64,000 nt of DNA from Anaerolineaceae bacterium (GTDB lineage: Bacteria; Chloroflexota; Anaerolineae; Anaerolineales; Anaerolineaceae), in the NCBI GenBank assembly GCA_029265815.1, contig JAJUGU010000005.1, forward strand, positions 1 through 64,000, read 5' to 3'. The first letter of the stretch is position 1. Every line of letters starts with the position of its first letter. This document shows positions 41,846-45,933 of this stretch, in pieces. The position numbers were made by a program, and so were the translations under genes. The notes under the pieces were generated by a model that was not told the origin of the DNA, made no database searches, and saw nothing but the letters and a program-made list of their open reading frames with translations.

Positions 41846-42922
41846 TTACAGGTCAAGTTTAAAGGCTGGCCTGATCTCACCCACCTGGATATGCCTCCAG
41901 TTGTACTGTGGACGCGGCAGGTATGGAGCAAGTTCTTTTAACTGATTTTCATCCAGCGCACCGAGTTCACGCAACACCTCGACCATGGCCGTTGATCGCG
42001 CACGTCCGCCGCCTTCATGGGCGATGCGCGATGTCTTGCCGTCGCGTTCCGAAAGGTCGCCGTCAGCAATCTTTAAGGTGATCCCATAAGCGGGTTTTCC
42101 ATTGGTGGGCAAGACAGCCGCTGCCTGGTATCCCTCGGCTCCGCCTTTGGTGAGAATACGGCCGTGGCCGGCGGTCATCAGACTGGTATCGAAAGTATCA
42201 GGTCCTGATACCATATCGGGGTGGGAGGTCATCGCATGGAAGATGCGCGCCAGAGCGCTGCGGCGCGGCTCTGGTAAGAGTGATGGATCAGCCAGGCGGG
42301 CGAAGGCAAACGCGGCAGCGCGCAGGGGTATGGCAAATACCGGTGCGGAGCACCCGTCCACACCCAGCAGGATCTGCTCAACAGGGACGCCGGTCATTTC
42401 ACTGAACGTGCGGATGACGCGCTGCTGAAGTGGGTGTTGGGGATTGATGTAATCTTCTTTGTCAAAGCCCTGCAGGATTGCCTGGGCGAGCATCCCGGTA
42501 TGCTTGCCAGAACAATTATGGCGCAGCGGAGTGATGGTTTCGTGATGTTCAAACATTCGTTCGGCGGTCTTTGCATCTGAAGGCGGGTGAACCCCACACA
42601 GCAGGTCGTCTGTGTTGACTCCTAATTTTCGCTGGATTCCTTCAATCACGCGCACGTGTTCATCGGTGCCTGAATGTGAGGCACACATGACCGCCAGTTC
42701 ACGGTCGGTCAAACCGAAACGTTCCATTCCCCCCAGCTCAACCAGCGGAAGGATCTGGAAGGGTTTGGATGATGAACGTAAATAGATCACGGCATCTGGA
42801 TCGCCGACAGAGGCCAGTAATTTGCCTGTCGGATCGCAAATAGCGATCGAACCATAGTGAATGGATTCAACAATTGGTCCGCGTGTCGTTTCAACGAGGG
42901 GGACATGATTGGGATAAGACAT
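41846..42922 (-). CDS. Asparaginase (rhizobial/thermolabile type)
   Basis: 358-residue member of the asparaginase II family that is unrelated to the AnsA/AnsB fold and resembles penicillin-binding/serine hydrolase folds. Conserved blocks are YLRSSSKPFQILPLVE (SxxK), CASHSGTDEHV, HNCSGKHTGMLA and GVDGCSAPVFAIPL. The reaction is L-asparagine to L-aspartate and ammonia. ATG 42922 is chosen because an AAAAGGAC sequence precedes it; the longer frame to 42991 enters the divergent promoter. With the convergent serine dehydratase it suggests amino-acid fermentation. Confidence 0.9.
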   Translation of the reverse strand: MSYPNHVPLVETTRGPIVESIHYGSIAICDPTGKLLASVGDPDAVIYLRSSSKPFQILPLVELGGMERFGLTDRELAVMCASHSGTDEHVRVIEGIQRKLGVNTDDLLCGVHPPSDAKTAERMFEHHETITPLRHNCSGKHTGMLAQAILQGFDKEDYINPQHPLQQRVIRTFSEMTGVPVEQILLGVDGCSAPVFAIPLRAAAFAFARLADPSLLPEPRRSALARIFHAMTSHPDMVSGPDTFDTSLMTAGHGRILTKGGAEGYQAAAVLPTNGKPAYGITLKIADGDLSERDGKTSRIAHEGGGRARSTAMVEVLRELGALDENQLKELAPYLPRPQYNWRHIQVGEIRPAFKLDL

Positions 42923-42986
42923 ACAGGAAGTCCTTTTGGTTGAAGTATACAAACGGCTTGATTGTACACCTTTCGCAAGATTCTGA

Positions 42987-43036
42987 TTCACAATTGTTCA
43001 CAAAATCCTTATAGAAAATTCATAACTTCTTCACAA
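42987..43036 (+). promoter_or_regulatory. Direct-repeat operator array, PhoB/OmpR-like (copy 2)
   Basis: Four direct repeats: TTCACAA at 42987 and 42997, TTCATAA at 43019 and TTCACAA at 43030. Spacings are 10, 22 and 11 bases, all close to whole helical turns. The last pair forms the same 18-bp block as at 5836-5853, and a -10-like TATCTT again follows eight bases later. This fits cooperative response-regulator dimers just upstream of the promoter. Confidence 0.6.
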
Positions 43037-43073
43037 GTGAAAGGTATCTTAAGGGTAGATTTTGGAGGTAAGA

Positions 43074-44486
43074 ATGGAAAAAGTTAATAGTCTTTCAAGT
43101 AGAACAAGAAACAACTGGATTTTGGATGCCGGATTATTCGCAAGCGGAGTGATAGCCATCCTGTCTGGCATTTATTTTTTGTTCATTCCCAGTGGTGGAT
43201 ACCAGGGCGGCAGGAATCCCTGGTACGGTGTGACTGTGTTATTTGAGCGTGAGACCTGGGAATGGCTGCATACCTGGATCGGGCTGGCAATGGTTGTGAT
43301 TGCGCTCGCTCACCTTCTCATTCATTGGAAGTGGGTAGTGGGAATGTTGAAACGTCTGACAAGTCGTCAAGGATCCGGGCTTAACACAAACGGCAGATAC
43401 AACCTGGCGTTAAATGTCTCCATCGCGCTCTGCTTTTTCATATGCGCTGTATCGGGAATTTACTTTCTCATCTTTGGCAGCAGTGAAGGAGGGCGCAATC
43501 TTGATCCAATGATCCTTTTCAGCCGTGGTGTATGGGATGTCGTCCACACCTGGTCGAGCATTCTGTTTATCGCGGCTGCCCTGCTGCATTTCTCCATCCA
43601 TTGGGGGTGGGTGACGAAAGTGACCCGAAAGATTTTTGGCGTAAAGGTACAAAATTCAAACAATACGATTGAAGTGGTAAAAAAGGAGAATAAGATGTTT
43701 AAAAAAGCATTTGGAATTGGATTACTTGTAATCGTCGTTGGTCTTCTGGCTTTTGGCGGCATCACACGCACCTTTGCAGCCAGTGAAACTTTTGCTGGTG
43801 ATGAAGGTTACGGCAATAGATTTGGCGGACGGGATGGTACTGCTGGTTACGGAACTTCAGCTGACCACAGCAGCGGAACCTACGCTCTCGATTCACTGCC
43901 GGTTGGAACGCTGGATCAAGCCGAAAAGGATGCGTTATTGTATATGTATGAGGAGGAAAAACTGGCGCGCGATATTTATGCCCTGTTTGCTGACCTGTGG
44001 GATAAACCGATGTTCGCCAATATCTCCAGCGCAGAACAGACGCACATGGATTCAGTAGCAGCGCTTTTGAAACGCTACGATTTACCAGTTCCGGGTATGG
44101 ATATCAGCGGGACGTACAGCAATTCTGACCTGCAGGGTTTATATGACGAGCTGAGCGCAAAAGGCAGTGCTTCGCTGGCAGACGCGCTCCTTGTTGGTGG
44201 CGCGATCGAAGAGCTTGACATCCTCGACCTCAGAGAGCGGCTTGAGCTGACGAATCAAACCGATATTCAAACGGTTTTTCAAAACCTGTTGAGCGGATCG
44301 TACAACCATCTCAACGCGTTTTCTTCAGTATTTCTGGTGGAAACAGGCGCGATCTATACCCCGCAATATATGAGCCAAACTGATTTCAATGCCGTTATCA
44401 CAGAAGGGATTCAGACCAGCGGCGGATACGGAAGTGGAACAAACAGCGGAAATTGTTATGGGGGTGGCGGAAGAGGAAGACGCTAG
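43074..44486 (+). CDS. DUF4405 cytochrome-like membrane domain fused to DUF2202 ferritin-like domain
   Basis: 470 residues. The first 200 form four membrane helices as an internal duplication. Each half has a GIYFL helix and an HTW...H(L/F).IHW(K/G)WV helix; the conserved His residues are likely haem ligands, as in cytochrome b-type DUF4405 proteins. At residue 208 a new Met starts a perfect signal-peptide-like segment (MFKKAFGIGLLVIVVGLLAFG). After a Gly-rich linker comes a DUF2202 domain (LDQAEKDALLYMYEEEKLARD, AEQTHMDSV, Glu/His metal residues). It may move electrons to, or protect against, metal or oxygen stress. GGAGG precedes ATG 43074. Confidence 0.85.
   Translation: MEKVNSLSSRTRNNWILDAGLFASGVIAILSGIYFLFIPSGGYQGGRNPWYGVTVLFERETWEWLHTWIGLAMVVIALAHLLIHWKWVVGMLKRLTSRQGSGLNTNGRYNLALNVSIALCFFICAVSGIYFLIFGSSEGGRNLDPMILFSRGVWDVVHTWSSILFIAAALLHFSIHWGWVTKVTRKIFGVKVQNSNNTIEVVKKENKMFKKAFGIGLLVIVVGLLAFGGITRTFAASETFAGDEGYGNRFGGRDGTAGYGTSADHSSGTYALDSLPVGTLDQAEKDALLYMYEEEKLARDIYALFADLWDKPMFANISSAEQTHMDSVAALLKRYDLPVPGMDISGTYSNSDLQGLYDELSAKGSASLADALLVGGAIEELDILDLRERLELTNQTDIQTVFQNLLSGSYNHLNAFSSVFLVETGAIYTPQYMSQTDFNAVITEGIQTSGGYGSGTNSGNCYGGGGRGRR
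43683..43697 (+). promoter_or_regulatory. Internal in-frame ribosome binding site and start
   Basis: AAGGAG (43683-43688), six bases, then ATG 43695 in frame with the fused gene. Translation from here would give a separate secreted or anchored DUF2202 protein of 263 residues with its own signal peptide. Confidence 0.6.
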
Positions 44487-44506
44487 TTTTTACTGAGATG
44501 ATAAAG

Positions 44507-44530
44507 GTGGAGCTGAGTCATAAGCTCCAC
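44507..44530. terminator. Bidirectional terminator between convergent genes
   Basis: GTGGAGCT/AGCTCCAC perfect 8-bp stem with AAAG before and TTTTAT after. Confidence 0.8.
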
Positions 44531-44532
44531 TT

Positions 44533-45933
44533 TTATTTATTAACCCGAACGCCTTTTAAACTTTTCCATTCGAATCCGCGGTCAAGAAAGTCTTTTTGCC
44601 AGGCGGCATCCATTAATTCGCGTTCCTGTTTTGCATACTCATCGAGGAAGGGCGCAAGTCCTGAGACCAGTGTATCTGCGCCCGTATGGGTCGGCCTCGG
44701 GTGGTATTCGTTGTATACTTCGCGGAATACATAGGGATGGTCGATCAACTGGCAGGGCAGCAGCAGGTTTTTATCAAATGGCTGACGAGCACGGATTCCT
44801 CTGAAGAAAGGCGAATTAAGAGCCTCGCGTAGGCTTTTTTCTTTTACATTATCAACAGCGAAATGGGTAAAAATGCACGGTTCCACGTCTCCATTGGCGT
44901 TAACGTGCACGTAATCCTTTCCGGCAGCGATACAGCCACCAACATAAGGTGCATCATTCCAGAAGTCAATCACAAAAAGGGGATACTTTTCGCGAATGCG
45001 CCGGGCTCCATTGATGCGCAGGTACTCGCGCTGTTGTGCGGTGGGCATCAATGCCGGGTCTGGGGCGCGTCCAACGGGTATATAAAGGAAATGCCAACCA
45101 AAGAAGCAGCCTTTTTCAACCAGCATCGAAACAAAGGCATCGCTGCAAATTTCCGTAATATTCTGACGGGTGACCATCGAGGAAAAACCGTATAACAAAC
45201 CAGCAGAACGCAGGTCGTCGAACGCCTTCATCGTGCGGGCAAATACACCCTGGCCGCGGCGGGCATCCGTAACCTCTTGCATGCCTTCAAGGCTGACGGT
45301 AATGGCTACATTTCCCAGCCTTTTCAATCGATTAATAGATGCATCGGTGATCAAGGTTCCGTTGGTAAACACGTTAAAGTAGAGATCATGGTACCGTGCA
45401 CACATGTCCCACAGATCTTCACGAAGGAAAGGTTCACCGCCCAGCACGGTTATGAAATAAATGCCCAGGTCGCGGGCTTCAGAAAGCACACGGTTAAACA
45501 CTTCGGGCGGTAGATCATCCTTGCGAGTGTACTCTGAAGCGTAGCAGCCAGTACATTTCAGGTTGCAGCGCATCGTGGGACTGATTAACAGCGTGTATGG
45601 CGGAAAGAAGCCCTCAGTTTTATAGAATTTTTCACGCGCCTTAGTTGAACTTCCGTAAGAATTATTGAAAACCAGATTGTTAACCAGGCAGGTGCTGGCT
45701 TGAAGATTCAAATCATGTAATGAGCGGTGCACCAGACGGGCAAGGGGTTTCCCATCCAACCAGGCTCGCTTAACTGAAGAGATTTGTTTCTGAGCGATTA
45801 ATTTGTCACGCGTGATGAACAAGGATGTGTCAAATAATCTGACCACAGCTTGATCAGAAGAATGTTTCAAGATTGAAAGAGCGAGACGCACAATCAGGCT
45901 GCGTGTGAATTGTGTCAAATGATTTAAATTCAT
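44533..45933 (-). CDS. Radical SAM protein with SPASM-like C-terminal region
   Basis: 466 residues. The [4Fe-4S] SAM motif CNLKCTGC is at C123/C127/C130, preceded by YTLLISPTMR. FITVLGGEPFLRED is the GGEP motif and VSLEGMQEVTDARRG follows. C-terminal cysteines (GGCIAAGKDYVHVNANGDVEPCIFTH) resemble a SPASM/twitch auxiliary cluster domain. An unusual 110-residue N-terminal helical extension precedes the barrel. Such enzymes modify peptides or cofactors; no obvious small peptide substrate gene lies next to it. GGGG precedes ATG 45933. Confidence 0.88.
   Translation of the reverse strand: MNLNHLTQFTRSLIVRLALSILKHSSDQAVVRLFDTSLFITRDKLIAQKQISSVKRAWLDGKPLARLVHRSLHDLNLQASTCLVNNLVFNNSYGSSTKAREKFYKTEGFFPPYTLLISPTMRCNLKCTGCYASEYTRKDDLPPEVFNRVLSEARDLGIYFITVLGGEPFLREDLWDMCARYHDLYFNVFTNGTLITDASINRLKRLGNVAITVSLEGMQEVTDARRGQGVFARTMKAFDDLRSAGLLYGFSSMVTRQNITEICSDAFVSMLVEKGCFFGWHFLYIPVGRAPDPALMPTAQQREYLRINGARRIREKYPLFVIDFWNDAPYVGGCIAAGKDYVHVNANGDVEPCIFTHFAVDNVKEKSLREALNSPFFRGIRARQPFDKNLLLPCQLIDHPYVFREVYNEYHPRPTHTGADTLVSGLAPFLDEYAKQERELMDAAWQKDFLDRGFEWKSLKGVRVNK

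Follow-up and report, generated by a model that had tools for sequence, protein, structure and literature searches.

A putative DUF4405 membrane cytochrome gene and a DUF2202 ferritin-like gene joined in one open reading frame in an Anaerolineaceae bacterium

The window analysed here is the 64,000-nucleotide stretch of Anaerolineaceae DNA at positions 1 to 64,000 of contig JAJUGU010000005.1 (assembly GCA_029265815.1). On its forward strand, ORF 43074-44486 forms a single uninterrupted frame of 470 residues, running from ATG 43074 to the TAG at 44484-44486. The frame encodes, in order, two DUF4405 units (residues 1-187), an AT-rich linker, an AAGGAG-N6-ATG, an anchor helix, and a DUF2202 domain (Table 1). 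Pfam matched both families well above their cut-offs: DUF4405 (PF14358) in two stretches with E 4.3e-16 and 59.6 bits against 26.7, and DUF2202 (PF09968) with E 4.9e-48 and 163.4 bits against 22. An NCBIfam scan of the fused protein gave no match. The open frame and the two Pfam matches bear out an earlier note, made from the letters of this DNA, that one ORF joins a duplicated DUF4405 to DUF2202. Its description of each DUF4405 copy as a four-helix unit was right about the duplication and wrong about the helices, since each unit has two and the bundle is made by both units together. The in-frame AAGGAG-N6-ATG that it placed at the junction is present at 43683-43697. The linker stands out in base composition, with 31% G+C (43631-43694) compared with 48.5% for the whole gene, 49% for the cytochrome part, and 49.5% for the DUF2202 part. 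The fused gene occurs in one copy in the source genome (2,583,771 bases in 26 contigs, 99.43% complete). A promoter scan of 42900-44650 found none, where 2.5 were expected by chance, and a terminator scan reported the downstream stem-loop solely on the minus strand, its one site comparing with 1.8 expected from shuffles.

Table 1. Coordinates of the features discussed in the text, in window positions unless a locus is named.
Feature	Position	Strand	Basis or remark
Primary Shine-Dalgarno-like GGAGGT	43064..43069	+	Read directly; serves ATG 43074
DUF4405 unit 1, residues 16-85 (best Pfam stretch)	43119..43328	+	Pfam, conserved columns; two helices; His66, His80, His84 conserved
DUF4405 unit 2, about residues 106-184 (approximate limits)	43389..43625	+	Second Pfam stretch, helices, conserved columns; two helices; His158, His172, His176 conserved
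Linker, putative former gene boundary	43626..43694	+	Base composition
A AAA AAG heptamer, zero frame, dnaX-type slippery sequence	43679..43685	+	
Internal Shine-Dalgarno AAGGAG, six bases ahead of ATG 43695	43683..43688	+	
Putative ancestral TAA in the -1 frame (GGA GAA TAA), one base ahead of the ATG	43691..43693	+	
Partner's internal ATG and membrane-anchor helix, residues 208-236	43695..43781	+	Alignments
DUF2202 ferritin-like domain, residues 284-443	43923..44402	+	Pfam, MJ0754 sequence match, fold match
Palindromic stem-loop followed by TTTTATTTAT, possible terminator	44507..44530	+	
OB-type partners	L025:1045-1632, L031:792-1388, and 23 further loci		Alignment A4

To compare this arrangement with that of relatives, DUF4405 loci were drawn from a nearest-relative search, 147 genomes of the family, and 400 genomes of the order. 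These sources gave 49 loci with a long match, eight of which were the same gene fetched twice and were dropped; the 41 distinct loci that remain are the best-scoring ones and not a random sample. A partner gene was called separate when its start lay in the span from 5 bases upstream to 100 bases downstream of the first base of the first gene's stop codon. The earlier note proposed to check whether orthologues are separate genes with a stop between them: a separate partner lies directly downstream at 35 of the 41 loci (33 by script, which did not count the metagenome-assembled genome UBA6107, plus L021 and L062 by reading). The partner is absent at four loci (L017, L024, L061, and L053), although only 361 bases of contig remain past the DUF4405 gene at L053, and an OB-type gene lies about 2.3 kb further on at L024. 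Only two loci, those of the window and UBA6107, are open through the junction. Because separate partners prevail at 35 of 41 loci, the fused state in the window appears derived, and we infer from this comparison that the window gene is a derived fusion of an ancestral stop-start gene pair.

The fused state is rare in wider samples as well. A DUF4405 profile search matched 61 of the 400 order genomes at E<=1e-25. Among the matches listed for 400 phylum genomes (E<=1e-20) and the 400 order genomes (E<=1e-25), only the window and UBA6107 ran on into a partner. A long frame (374) in genome G319 was considered as a third case; it proved to hold a stand-alone 239-residue DUF4405 protein in a different frame. 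Within the genus, 6 of 16 genomes carry a DUF4405 gene of the window's type: fused in the window, open at the junction in UBA6107 (G125), followed by a separate partner in UBA2260 (G124), G126, and G138, and partnerless in G130. UBA6107 and UBA2260, both Anaerolineaceae MAGs, are the nearest named relatives of the window, and all three share the same divergent neighbour gene, which we take to be asparaginase-like. In a tree of 24 DUF2202 regions, the window, UBA6107, and UBA2260 formed one group (99/97), within which UBA6107 and UBA2260 were sisters (100/97).

Comparison of the junctions indicates how the frames were joined. In UBA2260 (L004) the first gene ends ATT CAA GGA GAA TAA, and the ATG follows two bases later. 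The window keeps GGA GAA TAA at 43685-43693, with its cytochrome frame running one base off through AAA AAG GAG AAT AAG ATG. Since the terminal TAA of UBA2260 is still there, one frame away, the alignment argues for a frame shift upstream of it rather than loss of the stop, and on this reading a shift of frame within the short, A-rich boundary joined the genes. Thus the earlier suggestion of two genes fused by losing a stop codon stands as to the fusion and fails as to the stop, which persists in the -1 frame. The junction of UBA6107 (AAG GAG AAT AAA ATG) is likewise in open frame. A CG repeat lying between the DUF4405 units of UBA6107 differs by two bases from that of UBA2260, which breaks the UBA6107 cytochrome frame (L003:2140-2165), so that the sole other open junction belongs to a gene interrupted between its DUF4405 units, and a second intact full-length fusion was not found among the loci compared. 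The DUF2202 tree and the junction states together imply that the open junction arose twice, or else arose once and was lost once. The unfused state of UBA2260, the sister of UBA6107, suggests that the fusion is labile and perhaps almost neutral.

An error in the A6 run at the junction could produce the same picture, in which case the real organism would have two ordinary genes, the first ending in a TAA immediately ahead of the second gene's ATG. A change of one base in that run could indeed put the ancestral TAA in frame, and the two-gene state is that of most relatives examined. To test for such an error, we matched proteins from complete ORFs on stretches of three congener genomes to 738,941 bases made up of the window and stretches of its genome. 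At 40% identity or more there were 64 matches from G125, 84 from G126, and 26 from G124, covering 55,621 aligned residues, and none of these 174 congener-protein matches was frame-broken in the sampled DNA of the window's genome. In the reverse comparison, a split match was seen once among 69 in G125 (the DUF4405 gene) and twice among 36 in G124 (the DUF4405 gene pair and another match), whereas none of the 80 in G126 was split. The absence of broken frames in 174 matches makes an indel error at the junction unlikely, and UBA6107, which was deposited separately, is open there too. The case that the earlier note named as its refutation, a stop or frameshift hidden by misassembly, is thus disfavoured; sequencing error appears an unlikely cause of the fusion, and to the account of two ordinary genes masked in the A run we give very little credence.

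The internal ATG at 43695 corresponds to the position at which the separate partner genes of relatives start. Motifs of the form AAGGAG-N5-8-ATG are enriched in the window (9 observed, 2.29 expected), and none of 100 shuffles reached 9. The proposal that the internal start is capable of giving a free DUF2202 protein is consistent with the Shine-Dalgarno and ATG, which are intact and in frame. As the partner's ribosome site and start codon have both been kept, a free anchored DUF2202 is probably still made from the internal start in addition to the fusion. A study of AerR (PMC6199135) describes bacterial isoforms arising from an internal start and seen by Western blot. In both cases a longer ORF contains a second start that has a ribosome site of its own. 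The putative second start in the window would differ from that of AerR in being inherited from a once-separate gene.

A third product might come from slippage at the A AAA AAG heptamer, which in PMC11162774 is the dnaX slippery sequence, with frameshifting aided by a Shine-Dalgarno about 10 bases upstream and a stimulatory hairpin about 6 bases downstream. The heptamer in the window lies in the zero frame with a -1 stop at 43691, as in dnaX-type arrangements. The spacing differs: AAGGAG overlaps the heptamer, and the hairpin begins 7 bases after it with only -4.6 kcal/mol. The RNA fold of 43650-43740 had a z of -2.34 with 3 of 200 shuffles folding equally well, a value from one sequence only. 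The heptamer is missing from UBA6107 and appeared in 76 of 803 open linker shuffles. Across 621.6 kb of ORFs in the window's genome there were 50 zero-frame heptamers, 11 of them with a -1 stop no more than 4 codons on. With a heptamer within chance, its absence from UBA6107, and a weak hairpin, programmed frameshifting was rejected as an explanation, and -1 slippage is retained merely as part of a bold reading taken up below.

Partners at 37 loci fall into two types, a roughly 100-residue OB-like domain at 25 and DUF2202 at 11, with one locus (L021) having neither. The OB-type partner combines an anchor of the N-R-T type with a domain whose last residues are G-R-P-L-W or a near variant. Five of these proteins were scanned (four with Pfam and three with NCBIfam, two being shared), and none scored above a curated cut-off. 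AlphaFold predicted a beta barrel (pLDDT 89-98 as block means); fold matches were weak, with E 7.1e-3 at best (IF-1) and CusF and SilF lower. Cysteine is absent from 20 of the 25 proteins, and given this and the weak fold matches we claim no metal role for the OB-like partner. The pattern [ST]-G-A-[TS], which we assume to be a flavinylation-type motif, was absent from all 25. A partner profile matched in 22 of the 147 family genomes, two of which (G124 and G063) matched in the anchor part only. Among the remaining 20 matches, 18 lie directly beside DUF4405, the one in G033 is about 2.3 kb away, and the one in G145 is alone and damaged.

Hydropathy and the structure model both predicted two helices per DUF4405 unit, and thus four in total; in the hydropathy profile the anchor follows. 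Lys/Arg and Asp/Glu counts were 3 and 2 before TM1, 5 and 0 between TM2 and TM3, 9 and 2 after TM4, and 2 and 2 in both outside loops. The inside segments are thus net positive and the outside loops neutral, in agreement with four helices having both ends inside and DUF2202 outside. The full-length product would cross the membrane five times, by the four cytochrome helices and the anchor helix of the old partner. As the anchor would still place DUF2202 outside, the predicted topology is unchanged by the fusion.

This bears on the possibility that the fusion is real yet functionally neutral, with fusion plus free DUF2202 amounting to the two genes and read-through tolerated. The lability seen in three congeners (fused, open at the junction, and unfused), the retained internal start, and an AT-rich linker of no visible conservation all agree with neutrality. 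Against it there is only a weak argument, the open junction common to UBA6107 and the window despite a DUF2202 identity of just 58.6% between them. Against a working fusion, G126, G138, and other loci manage with two genes, and four loci, including that of G130 in the genus, are partnerless. Neutrality is a real possibility, if one that we think less probable than a working fusion.

Residues 231-233, at the outer end of the anchor, form an Arg-Thr motif that reads T-R-T in the window and most often N-R-T in relatives. In the OB-type partners, Leu18, Gly21, Arg25, and Thr26 of the anchor are invariant in 25 of 25. We surveyed 45 DUF2202 proteins, after dropping duplicate L064 and the second domain of L070. 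An R-T anchor was present in 11 of the 11 proteins directly beside DUF4405 and in 1 of the 34 others, counts that come from related, sometimes nearly identical rows and are not to be taken as a probability. Non-adjacent here means that a DUF4405 match is not the first neighbour in the fetched flank; L060 has one next but one, and L059, counted as non-adjacent, has a weak match nearby. The sole non-adjacent protein with an R-T anchor, L019, has no DUF4405 match within 10 kb. A lipobox-like pattern occurs in 12 of the 34. In G153, G231, and G418, DUF4405 lies in the same cluster as DUF2202 without adjoining it, and these DUF2202 proteins, of which only that of G418 entered the count of 34, have no R-T anchor. 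Thus some DUF2202 proteins linked to DUF4405 can do without docking through the anchor.

The segment had been described in the earlier note as a textbook signal peptide, and it is indeed signal-like. If cleaved, it would release DUF2202 after export and leave the fusion as merely a precursor. Regions resembling n, h, and c and the alanine-containing end T-F-A-A fit such cleavage, and the DUF2202 proteins of G153 and G231 start with plain signal-like segments lacking the R-T motif. Conservation of such Arg and Thr residues is not expected in ordinary signal peptides. Their invariance in the OB-type partners, and their distribution between DUF4405-adjacent and other DUF2202 proteins, some of the latter lipobox-like, make release by cleavage unlikely and suggest a specific membrane or docking anchor instead of a plain signal peptide.

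Other architectures of the two families were also observed. On contig 2 of the same genome, L002:1018-2013 (minus strand) encodes a four-helix part resembling DUF4405 that continues in frame into an R-R-x-F-L signal or anchor segment and an outside end rich in Cys; it differs from the window gene in a DUF4405 match below cut-off (E 0.38), in this signal, and in its outside part. Further weak DUF4405 matches in the family fall in open frames of about 300-350 residues. L070:762-2219 encodes a 486-residue protein that starts in a lipobox-like way and contains two DUF2202 domains in tandem, and L065-L068, L072-L074, and L076 are DUF2202 proteins of about 380 residues with an extra C-terminal region.

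An alignment of 38 DUF4405 rows disclosed invariant H66, H80, H84, H158, and H172, with H176 in at least 90%. In PMC11334425, one DUF4405 protein and FezC were each found to contain haem b after purification, and these cytochromes share with the window protein the Pfam domain and conserved histidines in membrane helices. The DUF4405 proteins modelled in that study have six helices and lie near apbE/flavinylation genes, whereas the window protein has four helices in two repeats and a fused ferritin-like domain. With its six histidines, three per repeat, a single chain would hold the haem ligands of a whole FezC-like dimer.

The AlphaFold model of the fused protein had a mean pLDDT of 78.5, with DUF2202 blocks at 87-98. 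Its best fold match was MJ0754 (3q4r, TMt 0.94, E 5.5e-11), a structure titled as being with Zn2+. MJ0754 of Methanocaldococcus jannaschii (3q4n, 3q4o, 3q4q, and 3q4r) is a DUF2202 protein whose structures match the ferritin-like domain at 43-44% identity and TMt 0.92-0.94, and the PDB sequence match of the window domain to it had E 5e-40. The solved chains (193-196 residues) consist of the domain alone, whereas that of the window follows a cytochrome and an anchor helix. A search of our literature library for DUF2202 or MJ0754 found no paper naming either. Among the alignment rows that have a letter at the position, candidate ligands E293-E295, E321, H324, E379, and D382 are conserved in all 25, and H412 in all 26. 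The canonical di-iron site of ferritins and rubrerythrins has two E-x-x-H motifs. The window domain has the first (E321-H324), but Ser409 replaces the Glu three positions before H412. Without that Glu, the metal site of DUF2202 may be unusual, and a standard di-iron centre is not certain.

Gene neighbourhoods point to electron transfer. In G153 (L131), genes for DUF2202, cytochrome b, Rieske, cytochrome c, DUF4405, and an OB-type protein lie in a row on one strand, and G231 (L132) has the same gene order as judged by sequence. In G418 (L130), DUF4405, OB-type, and DUF2202 genes are consecutive beside a divergent cytochrome b gene; proteins were scanned for G153 and G418 only. The company of cytochrome b, Rieske, and cytochrome c favours electron transfer between the quinol pool and an outside metal domain. 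A haem b cytochrome would move electrons between the quinone pool and the DUF2202 metal site, both the substrate and the direction being presumptive, and DUF2202 would spend them on the reduction of peroxide or oxygen, or on iron cycling. Another role for DUF2202 could be iron storage or ferroxidation, with DUF4405 supplying or removing electrons in the way proposed for FezC in ferrosomes. Its appeal lies in the relationship of DUF4405 to ferrosome FezC, as given in PMC11334425, and in bacterioferritins among the fold matches. Those matches are weak (E 0.06 and above), and all three significant ones are to MJ0754 and not to cage ferritins, which leaves an iron-storage role rather improbable in our judgement. 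As a whole, we moderately favour a frame-shift fusion that serves electron transfer between the quinone pool and DUF2202 while free DUF2202 is also made, an account in which the topology, electron flow, substrate, and dual products are predicted.

A bolder reading combines two ideas. The first is an undescribed, order-wide electron-transfer dock, in which an anchor of the form G-x-x-N-R-T-x-A would plug either DUF2202 or the OB-like domain into a four-helix DUF4405 cytochrome with six histidines, the window gene being a natural covalent version. The second is that one message in the window would give three products: the zero-frame fusion, a free cytochrome through a -1 slip to the old TAA, and a free partner from the ATG one base on. 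We rate the dock by itself as likelier than the two together; the joint reading, a modular DUF4405 dock with exchangeable outside modules and three products, is a long shot.

Fusion of two genes is a strong hint of joint function, and here it links DUF2202 to a haem-binding class of membrane cytochromes. This linkage gives both DUF4405 and DUF2202 a function that can be tested. The comparison also reveals that the partner anchor is conserved in relatives and that many of their partners carry an unnamed domain. Finally, a stop-start junction that a single base can open may be a route from an operon to a fusion protein.
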